Program-made: the position numbers and the translations under genes | Notes under the pieces: generated by a model | The model's input: the letters and a program-made list of their open reading frames with translations, nothing else | The model's database searches: none | What the model was told of the DNA's origin: nothing | Part shown: positions 6,057-26,876 of the stretch, one piece after another | Numbering within the stretch: the stretch's first letter is position 1 | Layout: every line of letters begins with the position of its first letter | IMG/VR virus record: IMGVR_UViG_3300011270_000015 | Location: 1 to 28,927 of that record | Strand: one strand, 5' to 3' | Length of the DNA: 28,927 bases | Source: a virus

Positions 6057-6890
6057 CTACTTGTCCAAGCCGAGCGTGGGATTGTCGGCAAGTTCGCGGT
6101 CGCGCTTGAACCATTCCTCGCGGTTCTGAAAGCCCTGAGTTCGCGCGAAGGTATCCGGCGTGTAGCCTTTGCGTTCCTTGGAGCGAAACGACTCTGCGGC
6201 GCGATCTCCGAATTGTTCAATAATGGTTTCGGGCAATTTGTCTTTCTGACTGTTCACGGTGCGTCCATTCGTCGAGCCTGGAAGCGGTGCTTGGGTGTCG
6301 AGCTTCTGTTGCCGTAGCGTGGCGTCTTTATCGCGCGCCCGAATCTCGGTGAGGTGGCGACCCGCAACCATTCGCGTCGCATCCCTCACCCAGTCGAGCA
6401 TGATGGTCTGGCCAGGCCGCAGGCCTTTGATCAGCACCTCTCGGACTTCGGTTTCGTACTCTTTGAACAGGTCGCCGAGTTCGGGGTCAGCCTTCATCTG
6501 CGTCAGCACAACGCCGTTGATCGCTTCGGCACCTTGCGTACGCAACGGGGTGACGTGCTCAACCTCAAATATCTGGTCGCGCAGTTCGTCGCGCTTTCGC
6601 TGAAGGGCGGCAATGGGCTTGCCTTCCTGCACGGCCTGATCGATCTGCGTATCGAGAGTGCTGACTTGCCCGCGCAACTCGGCGGGATCGGGACCAGCCG
6701 GAGCGGCAGCAACGAGGGGAGCCTTCGGTGTCAGTTCACTGATAACGCCGCGGACGATGTTCTGAACGTCTACGGACTTGAAAGTAGCTTCGGGCGGGGC
6801 GGGCGGATCCTTAGGTGGATCGACGGGCGGGTCTTTACCCGGATCTCCAGGAGGATCTACGGGCGGCTTGGTTACATCGTCTTCGGGCAT
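6057..6890 (-). CDS. Putative scaffolding protein (277 aa)
   Basis: I place the start at ATG 6890, with GGAG six bases before it. A TTG at 6902 is less well placed. Residues about 1-40 are an acidic, proline-rich low-complexity stretch built of PPVDPP and DPPKDPP units. Residues 70-110 form a charged coiled-coil type helix (AELRGQVSTLDTQIDQAVQE). The C-terminal half is charged and helical and ends KRDRELADNPTLGLDK. Lack of globular hydrophobic core, high charge and a place between portal and capsid genes are typical of phage scaffolding proteins. The assignment is by character and position, not by a family motif. Confidence 0.6.
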   Translation of the reverse strand: MPEDDVTKPPVDPPGDPGKDPPVDPPKDPPAPPEATFKSVDVQNIVRGVISELTPKAPLVAAAPAGPDPAELRGQVSTLDTQIDQAVQEGKPIAALQRKRDELRDQIFEVEHVTPLRTQGAEAINGVVLTQMKADPELGDLFKEYETEVREVLIKGLRPGQTIMLDWVRDATRMVAGRHLTEIRARDKDATLRQQKLDTQAPLPGSTNGRTVNSQKDKLPETIIEQFGDRAAESFRSKERKGYTPDTFARTQGFQNREEWFKRDRELADNPTLGLDK

Positions 6891-6937
6891 CTGGTTCTCC
6901 AAACGCCCTCTATGGAATCGGCCGCCCTATGTCCCTC

Positions 6938-6997
6938 GAAAAACAGCGACGCTCTTCGTGGTCCGGTGGGATGACCGAAACCATAAAGAGCGTCGCT
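6938..6997 (-). terminator. Probable Rho-independent terminator or attenuator
   Basis: A perfect 12-bp inverted repeat (AGCGACGCTCTT, arms 6945-6956 and 6986-6997) has a 29-base loop that itself contains a shorter CGGT/ACCG pairing. On the minus strand the second arm is followed by GTTTTT, the usual T-run. It lies in the only sizeable gap of the head operon, between the 78-aa gene and the scaffold gene. It could lower read-through from portal into scaffold and capsid, or mark a separate transcription unit. Confidence 0.6.
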
Positions 6998-7028
6998 ACC
7001 TAGGCTCTATGAGAAATAGAACGCGATG

Positions 7029-7265
7029 TCAACTATGGCCGTTGTCAACGGTTGTGTCGGCGGGAAGATTTAAGGCCTGATCGACGTGAGTCTGGAGGTC
7101 GCGGATGGCGCGCACTTTACCCTTTGCGAGCCATACCATCTCGGTAATTCCGGCACTTTCCATTTCGTTGCGGCAATCCTCGAGTCGCTCACGCAACCAC
7201 GCCTCGAAGTGTTCGCGCATTAGTCGATCCGTCTTCAAGGCGTGAAAGAAATATGAGCCGGTCAT
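7029..7265 (-). CDS. Small helical protein (78 aa)
   Basis: The ATG overlaps the stop of the 57-aa gene (ATGA). The product is charged and largely helical (REHFEAWLRERLEDCRNEME, then a MVWLAKGKVRAIRDLQTHVD segment). Short helical proteins between portal and scaffold genes are common in phages. I do not recognise this one. The probable terminator follows it. Confidence 0.6.
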   Translation of the reverse strand: MTGSYFFHALKTDRLMREHFEAWLRERLEDCRNEMESAGITEMVWLAKGKVRAIRDLQTHVDQALNLPADTTVDNGHS

Positions 7266-7435
7266 CCGGGTCTCCCCAGCAAGTCCATCATTTCCTCGAC
7301 GCCGATAACACGATTCGCATCAGGTAATATGAACGCTCGAAAGTAGCGGTCCCAATAGAGACGCGGCGGATGATCCATCAAAATCATCGGGTCGCCGTCC
7401 CGATTGTCACTGCCACGCCATTCGTCGAATGTCAT
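7262..7435 (-). CDS. Small hypothetical protein (57 aa)
   Basis: The ORF starts MTFDEWRGSDNRDGDPMILM. Its ATG overlaps the portal stop (ATGA at 7432-7435), and its own stop overlaps the next ATG in the same way, so the frame is bracketed by coupled genes. It contains an aromatic cluster (RLYWDRYFRAFIL). Function unknown. Confidence 0.55.
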   Translation of the reverse strand: MTFDEWRGSDNRDGDPMILMDHPPRLYWDRYFRAFILPDANRVIGVEEMMDLLGRPG

Positions 7436-9321
7436 TGAATCGGCACTCCTCCCGCCTCAGTCGGCGGAATATCCTGTGGACCTTGCGGCGCGCCACCTTG
7501 AGCACGTTCCTGCATCATCTGCGCGAGGCCATTCAACCCGCCCTGTGCCTGCGGCGGTAACTGCTCCGTCATTTGCTTGATGCCCTCGACTTCCGCGAGG
7601 TACGCATCCACGTCGCTGACTGTCTCGAAGGTGCGGAGAATTCTGCGCATGAGCTTGATGCTGGCAGCTTCGATGGCCTCGACGAGCTGTTTCATTTCCT
7701 GCGTCGGCGCCTGCGCCTTCAACTGCTCAAGCTGAATGCGGCTCTGGTAATACTTCTCAGCAAGTTGCGAGAGCATCACCCAACTCTGTCGGTCAGCCTC
7801 GCGGTTGATCGATACCGACGACGCGGTGACTTGGATGTCCACGGCATCGATCAGGTTATCGACCTTGCCCATCAGTTCGAGGAACTTGTCGGCCTTGTCG
7901 CCTAGAACGTTCTTGATGTCCTCGATAACCGCTTTGTCCTTAGCCTTGATGCGTTCTTGGGTGCGATACAGGCACTGCCGAATGGCCGCTGCGATACATC
8001 CGCGCATGTTGCGAAACGCCGGAGTGAAGCGCCGGTTGGCGGCCTGCATGTATGACATTGCAGAAATACCAGGGGTACGAGTACCCAACCGTCCTTGAGC
8101 CGCCTGTAGGTCGCTCACCCCTGTTCGGCGTTCCGCAAAGCTAATCGTCATCATCTCGGCCTGTGTCGATGACGGGTAGATATCCGCCATCTTGATTCCC
8201 TCGACCTCGTCCTTGTTAGCCTTGAGCACAAGTCCAGGCCAGATTTTCGCTAAAAAGGACGCCACCGCTGGAGCTGCGCGCCAGATGCGCGCATTTGCGA
8301 GCCGCATGTTTAGCACACGCTCGTTGTGGATGGTCGAGACTTCATCCTCGAACGGCGTGTTCATCCGCATCACGCCCAAGCCCCACGCGACGTGCGGGCG
8401 AAGCTGGTAGACAGCGAACTCGAACGGGCGGGCATCGTACTTGGCGAACGCCACCGACATGATCTTGTTCGTGGTTACGTCTGAGACGATTTCGAGTTCT
8501 TCGAGGAGGCCGTCGTCGTCGATGTCGTACTCGCCGCAGCAATATTCGATCTGGTAGAGTTTACCCGCTGCCGCCTCGGATGAGTGCTCTTTCGCTACAT
8601 CGAGGCGCTTCTGCCGGACCTCGGAAATATTCGCAGCGGTCTTGATGCCTTCGGTATTCCACCCTTTCGGGTTATGGTCGCTCTTCTCGTAAAGGCTGAT
8701 GTCGGGCTCAGTGAGCCACATATCCATCGAAACCCACCGCGCGGTTTGCACGTTGCCACGATCGCCTTCGGGTAAGTGGAAGTCCTCGATGGCGAGCGGG
8801 ATGATGCGCGGGCCACGGTCGATGATTTTGTAGGTGTCGGTGACTTTGACCTTCTCTACCCACGGGATGTAGAAACACATTGAGCCGAGCTTGATGCAGT
8901 CAAGCGTCGCGGGCGGGATAGCGTCGTCGACGTTGAATGCCTCGCGGCAGCCCCAATCCACGTAGTCTTGCACCGCGTCCGAATAGTCCTCGTAACCCTT
9001 GCGGGGCAGCACCTGAAGCATCTGGTCGGTCTGGTAGAGCAGTTCGATCAGGTTGGCGTGAATATTGTCGGTAGCGATCGCGCCGAGGGTGATTTCGATA
9101 TTGGGAGCGTCGGAGACCGTGCCTACCGAATCGCGGACGCTGGACGGCGGGATACCTTCGTACATCCGCATCTCGTCCATCCAACCAACTTCAATGGCTT
9201 TGCGGGCGGATTCGGAGCGGAGACGTTCTTCCTGCCGCCAACGGGAGAGATTGCCTAGCTGCTCATCAGTCAGGGAGTCAAAATCGATCTGCTTCCCCCC
9301 TGACTTGTCAATGATACGCAT
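7432..9321 (-). CDS. Portal protein
   Basis: This 629-residue protein should form the ring through which DNA enters and leaves the head and on which the tail is built. It starts at an ATG that overlaps the upstream stop (TAATG). The N-terminal 230 residues contain helices and a YEGIPPSSVRD segment. The core has PFEFAVYQLRPHVAWGLGVM and the long helix region after FEDEVSTIHNERVLNMRLAN, the pattern of podovirus/P22-type portals, with a barrel-helix C-terminus rich in charged residues. The last 45 residues are Gln/Gly/Pro-rich and probably disordered. Length and place in front of the scaffold and capsid genes agree with the call. Confidence 0.8.
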   Translation of the reverse strand: MRIIDKSGGKQIDFDSLTDEQLGNLSRWRQEERLRSESARKAIEVGWMDEMRMYEGIPPSSVRDSVGTVSDAPNIEITLGAIATDNIHANLIELLYQTDQMLQVLPRKGYEDYSDAVQDYVDWGCREAFNVDDAIPPATLDCIKLGSMCFYIPWVEKVKVTDTYKIIDRGPRIIPLAIEDFHLPEGDRGNVQTARWVSMDMWLTEPDISLYEKSDHNPKGWNTEGIKTAANISEVRQKRLDVAKEHSSEAAAGKLYQIEYCCGEYDIDDDGLLEELEIVSDVTTNKIMSVAFAKYDARPFEFAVYQLRPHVAWGLGVMRMNTPFEDEVSTIHNERVLNMRLANARIWRAAPAVASFLAKIWPGLVLKANKDEVEGIKMADIYPSSTQAEMMTISFAERRTGVSDLQAAQGRLGTRTPGISAMSYMQAANRRFTPAFRNMRGCIAAAIRQCLYRTQERIKAKDKAVIEDIKNVLGDKADKFLELMGKVDNLIDAVDIQVTASSVSINREADRQSWVMLSQLAEKYYQSRIQLEQLKAQAPTQEMKQLVEAIEAASIKLMRRILRTFETVSDVDAYLAEVEGIKQMTEQLPPQAQGGLNGLAQMMQERAQGGAPQGPQDIPPTEAGGVPIQ

Positions 9322-19960: not shown

Positions 19961-21013
19961 ATGGCCGCTCGCCCCGAGCTGATTGATGCCGTAATTCGGC
20001 AAGAATCTGGGGGACGCTCGAATCCGCCCGATGCGGGCAGGGGGGCCGTGGGTCTCATGCAGATCGAGCCTGCCACGGCGAGGGCTTACGGCTTCGATCC
20101 TTCTCGTCTGCACAATCCGGCGTACAATCGAATGGCGGGCACCGCCATCCTTACGAGCCTCGTCGACGAGCACAAAGGTAATGAACGCGAAGCGCTCAAG
20201 TCGTACTATGGTCGCGGCAAAGCTGGGAAAGGCATGCCGACCACGGATGAATACGCTGATAAGGTATTGAAGATGGCTGGTTCCCCGACAAGTTCAGGAA
20301 CACCGATGCAGCGAATGATCGCCGATCCTGGCTTCGCCAAGATGAATCAGCCGCAAATGTACGACGCGGTTATGGCGGGGCTGGAAAGATCGGAACCGGG
20401 ATTTACCACCAAAGACCCTGCTTTTAAGCATCGCGTCGCAACGGAGATTCTGACGCGCGCGGGCAAACTCAAGACTGGGACTGCGCTTCAGGGTGGGGGC
20501 GGCGAACTACGCAAGCCGCTTCCCGGCGCCGTTGAGTTCGGTGAGAATTATGTGGCACCAGCCGTCGCGGGTACGGCGGGAGCATTAGGTGGTGCCGCGG
20601 TGGGTGGAGCTGTCGGTGGCCCACCGGGCGCAGTAGCGGGCGGCGCTGCGGGCGCGGGCGTCGGGGTGGCAGCCGCCGACTATCTTTCCGCGCGCATCAA
20701 TAAAACGTTCTTCGGTCGCAATCCCGACCTGTCGTGGCCGAACGTCGCTAAGAACGAGGCCGTCAATGCCGCCATCGGCGCTGCCAGTGAGCTGATTCCG
20801 GTTGGCCGGGTCGCAGGCAGTATCGTGGGTATCAATCCGCTGCTAGAAGGCGCCGGGCTCGCTCAGCAAGAAGCCGCGGAGCCGCTGAACGATTCGGCGA
20901 ACAGCAGGAGGCCAGTGGCCAGGCCCGTTTGGCGGCTGGCGTTGGGGCGCGCGACAAGACGGCGCAGGCACTCGCACCCGAGGCGCGCGGTCAGGCGATT
21001 CAGCAACGGCTAG
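19961..21013 (+). CDS. SLT-type lytic transglycosylase domain of ejection protein (350 aa as read)
   Basis: Residues 10-70 form an SLT domain: IRQESGG with catalytic-type Glu15, GAVGLMQIEPATARAYG, and NPAYNRMAGTAIL. The domain cuts peptidoglycan for DNA entry, as in T7 gp16. A Gly/Ala-rich linker (about 200-240) follows. From about residue 307 the reading turns into an Arg-rich stretch (RRPVARPVWRLALGRATRRR) that looks like off-frame sequence, while the frame used by the next ORF gives plausible protein (AAERFGEQQEASGQARLAAG). A missing base near 20881 would join both into about 868 residues, with the SLT domain at the N-terminus. Confidence 0.65.
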   Translation: MAARPELIDAVIRQESGGRSNPPDAGRGAVGLMQIEPATARAYGFDPSRLHNPAYNRMAGTAILTSLVDEHKGNEREALKSYYGRGKAGKGMPTTDEYADKVLKMAGSPTSSGTPMQRMIADPGFAKMNQPQMYDAVMAGLERSEPGFTTKDPAFKHRVATEILTRAGKLKTGTALQGGGGELRKPLPGAVEFGENYVAPAVAGTAGALGGAAVGGAVGGPPGAVAGGAAGAGVGVAAADYLSARINKTFFGRNPDLSWPNVAKNEAVNAAIGAASELIPVGRVAGSIVGINPLLEGAGLAQQEAAEPLNDSANSRRPVARPVWRLALGRATRRRRHSHPRRAVRRFSNG

Positions 21014-23901: not shown

Positions 23902-24233
23902 TTCTTCCTCCCGCTCTGATAGATGGTCGCGACAATCTCCCGCGAGGCGAGCATCTGTTCCTTCGTCGCAGGCATCCAATTGCCGCAGTCGCAAATGTTC
24001 AAGTCCTCAGGATCGTGATTCTTCACATCGAGGCCGGGGAGCGTCGAGTCGCGGCCATGTAGGAGCCAGACGGTGCCGTCGTCGTGGAAGACCTGAATCC
24101 AGAAATGCCCGCCCATGATGTCTTTGTGGCAGGTCAGGCCGGAGTGAGCCTCGGCAGTAGTCTGCGCCGCGAGCGGCAGTCCGCCGATGAACTTGGCGTA
24201 GGCGAGGCGCTGTTCGGCCGTTATCTCGGGCAT
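23898..24233 (-). CDS. Hypothetical protein (111 aa)
   Basis: I start at ATG 24233 in a TGATG overlap with the terminase nuclease stop. A GTG one codon earlier is possible. The protein starts MPEITAEQRLAYAKFIGGLP and has a beta-rich middle (GGHFWIQVFHDDGTVWLLHG) and a pair of cysteines in ICDCGNW. No family recognised. It is coupled to the ATP-grasp gene through TTGA. Confidence 0.55.
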   Translation of the reverse strand: MPEITAEQRLAYAKFIGGLPLAAQTTAEAHSGLTCHKDIMGGHFWIQVFHDDGTVWLLHGRDSTLPGLDVKNHDPEDLNICDCGNWMPATKEQMLASREIVATIYQSGRKN

Positions 24234-24904
24234 CACTTCATCTCCGCCTGTGCGAATGCGGCAACAACGCGCTCTTCGATCTGAGCCTCGGTCAGCCGCA
24301 GCGTCCTCAGATAGTTGCGATACTGCTGGACTTCGCCGGTCACTTCGTCGTTGGTGTGGCGCGCGGGTAAGAGCTTAATCGCCCCCGCCAGAGCATCGAG
24401 AATATCCTTGAACTGAGAGCCGGGAAAGGCTTCCCATTCGCCGCGCAGGTCGCTCATATCAGTGAGAGCAAAGATGCGGCCGGCCGTCGCGGCGGGCTGG
24501 AGTGTCGTCTCGATGCGCACGTCCTTGTCGGAGCCGAGGGTGATTTTGGTGAGCGGGAGTTTCTTGCCCTTCTCGCGAGCCTCGCGGATGAGGGAGTCGG
24601 CAAAGAGGGACTGGTTCGCGGATGAGTCGATGCCGATGGTGGCGGGATGGAAGTCGCTATAGGTTTTGAAGATTTCGTCGCAGAGTTCGTCGGTCGTGCA
24701 GTGCCGCGCCCATGCCTTGCGGATGAAGATGCGGTCGATATCGTCCTGCGAGACCACCACGATGGCCGAGCGGGAGCGGTAGTTGGCGCTGCGCGACTTG
24801 TTGGCGTGACCGGGGACGCGACCGCCGGCCGAATCGACGAAGCCCACTGTGTAGAGGGTCAGGAGCGGGATACGGATGGTGAGGGTGTCATTCATTCGTG
24901 CCAT
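24233..24904 (-). CDS. terL: Terminase large subunit, nuclease domain only (223 aa)
   Basis: The protein looks like the RNase H-like nuclease half of a large terminase, which cuts the DNA concatemer during packaging. Three acidic positions fit the metal site: Asp24 in VGFVDSAGG, Asp93 in IGIDSSANQ, and Asp167 or Asp170 in FKDILDALAG. In ordinary terminases it follows the ATPase in one chain. Here the ATPase is a separate gene about 480 bases upstream. I start at ATG 24904; ATG 24895 is also possible and neither has a clear Shine-Dalgarno site. The short preceding gene overlaps the start. Confidence 0.65.
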   Translation of the reverse strand: MARMNDTLTIRIPLLTLYTVGFVDSAGGRVPGHANKSRSANYRSRSAIVVVSQDDIDRIFIRKAWARHCTTDELCDEIFKTYSDFHPATIGIDSSANQSLFADSLIREAREKGKKLPLTKITLGSDKDVRIETTLQPAATAGRIFALTDMSDLRGEWEAFPGSQFKDILDALAGAIKLLPARHTNDEVTGEVQQYRNYLRTLRLTEAQIEERVVAAFAQAEMK

Positions 24905-25100
24905 CAATCAGATGATACGTTTCGTACCCCGCAATGAAACTGAGCCGTATGGGTCGTATATTTAATTCAGCGGCCACCTGACGTATCTGTTGTGTGGTCA
25001 GCTCACCAAAGAGAAAGCCATAAAGGACAGCTTCTTGCAAAGCACGGAAATTCAATTCAGCCATCCTCGTTCCCTCGCTTCGTTGCGGCGCCGCATTCAT
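24888..25100 (-). CDS. Small protein between terminase halves (70 or 58 aa)
   Basis: ATG 25100 overlaps the previous stop (ATGA); ATG 25064, twelve codons in, has GAGGGA six bases upstream and may be the true start. The conserved-looking body is AELNFRALQEAVLYGFLFGE followed by LTTQQIRQVAAELNIRP, helical, with a possible short helix-turn-helix. The function is unknown. It lies between the ATPase and nuclease genes and overlaps the latter. Confidence 0.5.
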   Translation of the reverse strand: MNAAPQRSEGTRMAELNFRALQEAVLYGFLFGELTTQQIRQVAAELNIRPIRLSFIAGYETYHLIDGTNE

Positions 25101-25315
25101 AACCAGCCCTGAGAAATCTTCTTGCACAATTCAGGATATTTGCGTTGTAGAAGTGCGCGCAGGGTTTCTATTACACATCTATCGTGTACTTCATGAGTTT
25201 CTCCGGTCTTCTCGTCCCACGCATCTTTTCGATAACTAGCATCCATGTTTGAGAAATCGGCATGAGATGTAAGTGTCTTCAGAATTGCCGCTAACAGATT
25301 GTCGTCGATTTCCAT
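25097..25315 (-). CDS. Small protein between terminase halves (72 aa)
   Basis: ATG 25315 follows directly after a TAG of a tiny upstream ORF. The sequence is acidic and helical (MEIDDNLLAAILKTLTSHAD) with a central HEVHDRCVIETLRALLQRKY. It ends in an ATGA overlap with the next gene. Unrecognised. It may be a small cofactor of the split terminase, which is speculative. Confidence 0.5.
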   Translation of the reverse strand: MEIDDNLLAAILKTLTSHADFSNMDASYRKDAWDEKTGETHEVHDRCVIETLRALLQRKYPELCKKISQGWL

Positions 25316-25387
25316 CTACTTTAGTCGCGTCCCTCTCCCTGCTTCGTTGCAGGCGAGTCTTCGACTGCCTCCACTGTGATACCGCAT
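25316..25387 (-). CDS. Possible 23-aa peptide (leader) after terminase ATPase gene
   Basis: ATG 25387 directly follows the ATPase gene stop (TGA), and its TAG directly precedes the ATG of the 72-aa gene. It would encode 23 residues starting MRYHSGGSRRLACNEAGRGT. The perfect fit between two genes is suggestive, but the stretch may simply be a leader. Parts of it resemble sequence before 25064 on the same strand. Confidence 0.3.
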   Translation of the reverse strand: MRYHSGGSRRLACNEAGRGTRLK

Positions 25388-26638
25388 TCAATTCAGTAGG
25401 CCCCGCTCTTTAGCTTCATTTCGTCGCCGCGCAAACAATTCAGTGAGGCGCACCCAAGTCGCTGAACCCTCGTCCTGCGCGCGCACCTTGCGTTCCATCC
25501 GTGCGAGCAGGCGCTGTTCGTGTTGCTCCTCACTCTCATCGTCATCCCAGCCTTTGCGCGGGTAGAGCCGATCTAGGCTGATACCGCGTTGAAATTCAGT
25601 ACGCCGGGTCCAGTAGGCGGACGTGAACTTACCGCCGGCGACCATCCGATCTGCGGCGCGCACGTCGGCGTCGTCCTTGTCGAAGACGATGAAGCCGTTT
25701 TTGATCTCGTAGGTGCGGACTTCCGCCCAGTCGAGCGCGGAGAAGGACGCGTTCAGCGGGTTGTTCATGTAGTTGGCGCTAAACAGCACTTTGCCCATGC
25801 CCTCCTCTTCCTGGAGGGCGAGTAGTGCTTCGAGAGGATAGCGCTCGGGCCAGATGGGTTTGCCGTCTTCGATCGCGGCACGGATGTTGACTGCCACGGT
25901 CGGGTCTTTTTTCCATTCCACGTACACGTCGTTGGCGGTCCAGTGAGTGCCGATGCCGACTTCGATGGAGCGAGTGAGGTCGTTGAGGCGTGAGCGGAGC
26001 GATTTGCGGCGCATCTTGGCGCGGTTCATCACGACTTCGGAGAGTGCCGCCTCGAAGCAGGCGATGTCGTCGATGATGATCAGGTCGTAGTGGCGCTGTT
26101 CGAGGGCAGTGCCGACACCAATAGCCGTGATGCTAGGTTCCGCAATGCCGATTCGCTTACGATGTACTGTGATTCGGTCTTCACCCCAAACCCCGCCGCT
26201 AGCAACAGCATCACGTCGGGGGTCACTAAAAAATACTTCCTTCCAGAGATGACGCAGCAGGTGGTTGCCTTCAAGGTGTTGTCTAATGACTGACAGATTT
26301 TCGGTCGCTTTTGGGGTTGTTTCGCCATGTAGCAATATCCTCGTATCGCAGCCGGGCATGCCTTTGAATAGTAAGTTGTTCGATGCGGGCTGAATCAGCG
26401 ACCAGATGGGGAAGGCATGAGAGCCGATGGTGGTTTTAAGGTGTACCACGGGTAACATGAGCAGTTTGCGACGACTAATAGCTGTGTCTTGCAGCCAATT
26501 ACAGACTGGATGATGCAGATGCTCCGACAGGTCGGGCATGCCAAGCACAAAACGGGCGAGCATGTAGAGACTTCGCTCGCAGCGGGCCTTACGCCGCCAG
26601 AAATTCCTTAGTCTTTGGAATGCGCGCAAGATCGCCAT
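25388..26638 (-). CDS. terL: Terminase large subunit, ATPase domain only (416 aa)
   Basis: This is the motor half of the DNA packaging terminase. Residues 59-72 read LLMLPVVHLKTTIG, a Walker A variant like the PRGHLKTT form of many phages. DLIIIDD (about 185-191) is Walker B with the catalytic acid, and GTHWTANDVY (about 231-240) is the coupling motif. Around residue 300 the NYMNNPLNASFSALDW segment marks the end of the ATPase region, where a nuclease would normally begin. Instead, about 100 charged residues follow (DDDESEEQHEQRLLARMERK) and then a stop. I chose ATG 26638, which overlaps the upstream gene by 50 bases, because RCERSLYMLARFVLG belongs to the family pattern. ATG 26573 would lose it. 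Confidence 0.7.
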   Translation of the reverse strand: MAILRAFQRLRNFWRRKARCERSLYMLARFVLGMPDLSEHLHHPVCNWLQDTAISRRKLLMLPVVHLKTTIGSHAFPIWSLIQPASNNLLFKGMPGCDTRILLHGETTPKATENLSVIRQHLEGNHLLRHLWKEVFFSDPRRDAVASGGVWGEDRITVHRKRIGIAEPSITAIGVGTALEQRHYDLIIIDDIACFEAALSEVVMNRAKMRRKSLRSRLNDLTRSIEVGIGTHWTANDVYVEWKKDPTVAVNIRAAIEDGKPIWPERYPLEALLALQEEEGMGKVLFSANYMNNPLNASFSALDWAEVRTYEIKNGFIVFDKDDADVRAADRMVAGGKFTSAYWTRRTEFQRGISLDRLYPRKGWDDDESEEQHEQRLLARMERKVRAQDEGSATWVRLTELFARRRNEAKERGLLN

Positions 26639-26876
26639 AGCCGCCCCACCGGAGTCGTTTGCGGAGTTCTTCAAGCTCGGCTTTTGAGAGTCCTTCATCG
26701 GTGGTTTTCTTCTCAACTGCCGCATCGACCCTAGCAATCGGCTGGCGAGAGGGCTTGAGCAGCTTCTTCTTGCAGTCGTCACAGAGCCGCGGCGGCCGGC
26801 CCGTGCTCTCGAACGTGAACGGCTTCTCGCAGTTCGCGCATGTGGCAGACTGTGCGGCTTTGAGAACGCCCTTCAT
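26589..26876 (-). CDS. Zinc-ribbon protein upstream of terminase ATPase (95 aa)
   Basis: Residues about 12-38 hold CANCEKPFTFESTGRPPRLC and then DDCKKK, i.e. CxxC and CxxC separated by about 17 residues, a classic zinc ribbon. The remainder is a charged helix (SKAELEELRKRLRW). The start is ATG 26876 in ATGA overlap with the two-TM gene. Its position directly before the ATPase gene is where a small terminase might be, but the size and fold are unlike usual small terminases. DNA-end recognition is a possibility only. Confidence 0.6.
   Translation of the reverse strand: MKGVLKAAQSATCANCEKPFTFESTGRPPRLCDDCKKKLLKPSRQPIARVDAAVEKKTTDEGLSKAELEELRKRLRWGGYGDLARIPKTKEFLAA

Follow-up and report, generated by a model that had tools for sequence, protein, structure and literature searches.

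Can the two activities of a phage large terminase be carried by separate genes, or does such an arrangement merely record a broken gene? The large terminase subunit (TerL) is normally one protein with a motor (ATPase) half and a cutting (nuclease) half, and in the packaging motors of tailed phages both have been described in one chain. In the stretch of viral DNA analysed here (hereafter the window: 28,927 nucleotides, IMG/VR record IMGVR_UViG_3300011270_000015), an original prediction made from the sequence had placed the two halves in separate genes with small genes between them. This description and its coordinates hold, with all the genes concerned on the minus strand (Table 1). In a profile search, the ATPase ORF matched positions 264-525 of PHROG 38 (terminase large subunit; E 3.9e-32) and the nuclease ORF matched positions 561-718 (E 1.8e-20), which are successive, non-overlapping stretches of one profile; a DNA-level search gave the same outcome. 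Alignments placed in the ATPase ORF a Walker A-like PVVHLKT, the Walker B motif DLIIIDD, the coupling motif GTHW and FSANYMNNP. Of the residues expected in a PHROG 38 packaging ATPase, the Lys and Thr of Walker A and the Asp pair of Walker B are present, and the Arg-Gly of PRGHLKT is absent. In the nuclease ORF, three Asp residues (in VD, IGID and DILD) align with the acidic residues of TerL, and the acidic triad of an RNase H-like nuclease thus lies within 24233-24895 by both profile and alignment. The two domains do not share one polypeptide, as PHROG 38 TerL domains would; they occupy separate ORFs with stops between them. The nuclease has its ATG at 24895 and its stop at 24233 (the ORF as listed spans 24233-24907). 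Beyond its conserved domain the ATPase continues for about 90 aa as an extra charged tail, and a search with this tail gave no credible match. Structure predictions for the two halves were of low confidence (pLDDT 37 and 42), and in a PDB profile search solved terminases were matched by the ATPase alignment only.

Table 1. Features of the terminase region of the window.
Feature	Position	Strand	Basis or remark
TerL ATPase half, 416 aa	25388..26638	-	PHROG 38 profile match, alignments
TerL RNase H-like nuclease half, about 220 aa	24233..24895	-	PHROG 38 profile match, alignments
ORF23, 23 aa	25316..25387	-	ATG directly after ATPase stop; ATPase frame
ORF72, 72 aa	25097..25315	-	ATG directly after ORF23 stop; ATPase frame
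ORF58, 58 aa	24888..25064	-	GAGGGAACGAGG-ATG leader; stop overlaps nuclease ATG
Repeat copy A, 45-nt direct repeat	25386..25430	-	ATPase C-terminus RRRNEAKERGLLN, stop
Repeat copy B, 73% identical	25050..25094	-	RRRNEARERGWLN, stop; leader and first codons of ORF58
95-aa gene upstream, CxxC pair	26589..26876	-	overlaps ATPase start

What lies between the halves? The ATPase frame runs on from RRRNEAKERGLLN and its stop through ORFs of 23, 72 and 14 aa, each with its ATG directly 3′ of the preceding stop. Three in-frame stop-ATG junctions therefore follow the ATPase in succession (25388-25050, minus strand), and two of them share TGAATGCGG and thus possibly derive from one duplicated event. ORF58 is in a frame different from that of the ATPase and overlaps the nuclease start. 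The G+C content is 46-49% in the gap, as against about 61% in the flanks. By codon-usage score, the coding evidence is modest for ORF58, whose score was reached by 1% of composition-matched shuffles (p 0.01), and weak for ORF72 (12%, p 0.12), and ORF23 gave no coding signal. ORF72 and ORF58 are likely small genes; ORF23 is more likely a leader or a relic than a gene. Neither ORF72 nor ORF58 had a Pfam match, a convincing PHROG match or a homologue among phages, no homing endonuclease gene was found between the halves, and the viral contigs yielded neither a homologue of ORF58 nor an exact match to its leader DNA.

The interval also contains a second copy of the ATPase 3′ end. The last 13 codons of the ATPase and its stop recur 336 nt downstream with 33 of 45 positions identical, the next best site in the window reaching 25. 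Nine of the 12 differences fall at third positions (binomial p 0.004, the test being post hoc), and seven of the nine changed codons are synonymous in the ATPase frame. Copy B is most simply taken as a relic of an ATPase 3′ end. If so, either a duplication or an exchange between related phages through recombination would have brought in ORF72, and the earlier layout would have been ATPase, ORF58, nuclease.

Is the split confined to this virus? Scans of viral and genome contigs with the window's own halves returned distant loci only, or none, with nothing closely related to the window among them. The best phage match of both halves was Podoviridae sp. ctLwi270 (MW202554; tblastn for the ATPase, 2e-9 for the nuclease), in which an ATPase with an intein-like insertion is followed by a 62-aa gene and then by the nuclease, whose start overlaps the stop of the 62-aa gene. 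The deposited record labels both halves terminase large subunit; the two-gene arrangement is therefore already on record, apparently without discussion in the literature. Scanning the viral contigs with the ctLwi270 ATPase gave 68 loci. The 13 with 59-71% identity (L033-L045, the ctLwi270 clade) were all split; they include near copies (L034/L035, L038/L039 and L040/L041) and so represent about ten distinct contigs. Among the remaining 55, more distant loci, 54 were continuous, with both domains in one ORF, and one was truncated. Within the clade the ATPase ends at one conserved site (NILAEVG or NILVEA, then stop) and in most members overlaps the next start. Both halves are under purifying selection there: the pairs with correctable synonymous change gave dN/dS values of 0.088, 0.028 and 0.074 (ATPase) and of 0.065, 0.063 and 0.046 (nuclease), which are approximate because synonymous distances are high. 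In ctLwi270 (L007 about 6735-7440) and L045 (602-2386), the TerL ATPase carries an intein-like insertion at one shared site, which precedes C-QQ(M/Q)N(N/D)P.

We sought the same arrangement in other phages, as was suggested with the original prediction, and found it in ctLwi270 and 13 related contigs. A split fixed in all of these, with purifying selection on both halves, bears out the view that the break is not a frameshift and favours a genuine two-gene terminase. The original prediction also took relatives with one continuous gene as a sign of a recent disruption. Such relatives exist (e.g., L002 and L046-L057), but they are distant, and what they indicate is a derived split rather than a recent disruption.

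The original prediction further allowed that the small ORFs might encode extra terminase subunits. As such they could bridge the ATPase and the nuclease. Their placement within the chain between the two halves would suit such a role, as would a common family of 71-80 aa that is conserved at the same position in one subclade (L037, L038, L039 and L042; dN/dS 0.13). However, the intervening ORFs of split members are mostly non-homologous, comprising this family and unrelated ORFs of 62 aa (ctLwi270) and 94 aa (L043), and in 8 of the 13 clade contigs there is no gene between the halves, which overlap. In the related pair L043 and L044 (93% protein identity in the ATPase and 90% in the nuclease, with synonymous sites near saturation), the extra gene of L043 sits exactly at the TAATG stop/start where L044 passes straight into the nuclease. 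We consider bridging subunits unlikely, and ORF72 and ORF58 are probably passenger genes.

Might the window instead hold a decaying or mis-assembled terL, split and with a damaged Walker A? Nearly all the relatives compared have a PRGHLKT-like Walker A, with PRG or a close variant, where the window has PVVHLKT (about 26434-26452, minus strand). The simplest reading of the window's CCCGTGGTACAC, set against the expected CCCCGTGGTCAC, is a pair of compensating one-base indels, which makes it conceivable that the window's enzyme is weakened or that its sequence contains an error. The window also has GTHW where relatives have GTRW, and its gap holds one copy of the duplicated ATPase end. Yet both ORFs are full length in the window, the acidic residues of the nuclease are intact, its codon usage is native (0.29 bits per codon), and analogous splits are stable in a clade. 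Moreover, Youna2 and L003 likewise lack the Walker A Arg, which is therefore not absolutely required. Decay or mis-assembly is accordingly a rather improbable account of the locus. Because one group of related viruses keeps the same split working, this looks like a real two-part enzyme and not a broken gene.

Introns are known in phage terL genes: that of ICP1 is intron-spliced, as shown by RT-PCR (PMC10448857), and that of Campylobacter phage IBB_35 contains one intron and one intein (PMC3322345); the TerL of Mic1 has two inteins (PMC7156551). The gap might accordingly be a self-splicing intron or the remains of one, the mRNA being spliced to encode a single TerL. As in ICP1 and IBB_35, terL is interrupted in the window, but unlike theirs the interruption bears no sign of an intron. 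An Rfam search of the interval on either strand, at gathering and at permissive thresholds, matched no group I or II intron and no other family; the ATPase continues into its own tail of about 90 aa beyond the conserved domain; and the 8 clade contigs with overlapping genes offer nothing to splice. The suggestion of intron remains thus fares poorly, and we regard splicing as very improbable. The Pfam match list contained no intein family for either half, and on visual inspection the end of the ATPase is an unrelated tail. That stop-codon readthrough adds ORF23 and ORF72 to some of the ATPase, as three successive in-frame stop-ATG junctions might suggest, is hardly credible, in that the stops are not alike (TGA, TAG, TGA), two of the junctions share one sequence, termination-reinitiation predicts stop-ATG equally and the pattern is not common to the clade members.

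How often has the split arisen? In the ATPase tree the ctLwi270 clade holds together (100/100) with the window outside. The window itself goes with L002, whose TerL is continuous, in a weakly supported grouping (82/74 in the nuclease tree). The AU test disfavours a single origin on the ATPase data (p 0.035) but does not reject it on those of the nuclease (p 0.128). In a smaller tree built before, the ATPase leaned the opposite way, with the window joined to ctLwi270 at 73/80. The split in the window may have arisen independently of the ctLwi270 clade, but because the branches are long and the trait itself served to define the group, two origins are a lean rather than a result. As the window's place in the split clade is not firm, the evidence from the clade applies to it by analogy.

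We regard it as likely that this virus has a PHROG 38-type TerL made as two polypeptides, with a stable split, a junction prone to insertion, small genes as passengers and halves that presumably associate. The two ORFs are separate and intact, every sampled member of a sister or convergent clade has the split, both halves are under purifying selection in that clade, and the inserts vary. On this two-polypeptide reading, both window ORFs would be translated, the ATPase and the nuclease being made from one tightly packed gene cluster, probably by way of stop and start codons that overlap or adjoin. The break would lie in the interdomain linker, destroying neither active site, and the halves would presumably meet on the portal and assemble non-covalently into a working motor. 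The stop/start junction could take in small genes with harm to neither half; ORF72 and ORF58 would be passengers of this kind, and some of the inserted DNA in the window may have arrived when the ATPase 3′ end was duplicated or underwent recombination. One may speculate that the charged ATPase tail is a docking segment.

Known systems resemble this arrangement in part. In ctLwi270 and the 13 clade contigs, as in the window, the break in a PHROG 38-type TerL falls within the linker that joins the two domains, and some of these loci have a small ORF at the break. Unlike that of the window, their ATPase stops right after the conserved linker and lacks the long tail; their intervening ORFs are unrelated to those of the window or absent; ctLwi270 and L045 carry the ATPase insertion, which the window does not; and ctLwi270 shares no other detectable genes with the window. 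Friedrich and co-workers are said to have described in 2007 how an inserted gene divides nrdA of Aeromonas phage Aeh1, which encodes an essential enzyme, and leaves both parts functional. There the inserted gene reportedly encodes a homing endonuclease, whereas the small ORFs of the window have no nuclease similarity. In Parabacteroides phage phiPDS1 (MN929097), the two TerL domains likewise fall in two CDS, for which its authors suspected an assembly or code problem (PMC10773633). We considered phiPDS1 as a precedent for the window and rejected it, since its terL (L027 23502-25054) has a frame change, perhaps a programmed frameshift or a sequencing error, in an otherwise continuous coding sequence, with no gene between. 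The open-access literature, to which our search extended (subscription papers lay outside it), yielded no description of a conserved two-gene TerL with variable genes between.

Among the open problems of packaging motors is how they switch back and forth between pumping and cutting. Because it would have these activities on separate proteins, such a lineage would let each be added, removed or mutated independently of the other in a system found in nature. It is possible, though on balance doubtful, that a two-component large terminase has arisen twice in one TerL family, assembling non-covalently, with the ratio and timing of its parts variable and cutting switchable apart from translocation. 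Annotators should be aware that terL can come as two genes, given the use of TerL as a phage marker.

The product of the 95-aa gene upstream of the ATPase is a candidate small terminase or zinc-finger protein. A portal-like ORF (7432-9321, minus strand; Pfam SU10_portal, E 2e-10) lies about 15 kb from the terminase genes. On the plus strand, 19961-21013 encodes a transglycosylase-like internal virion or tail protein, and the plus-strand genes adjoining it look structural.
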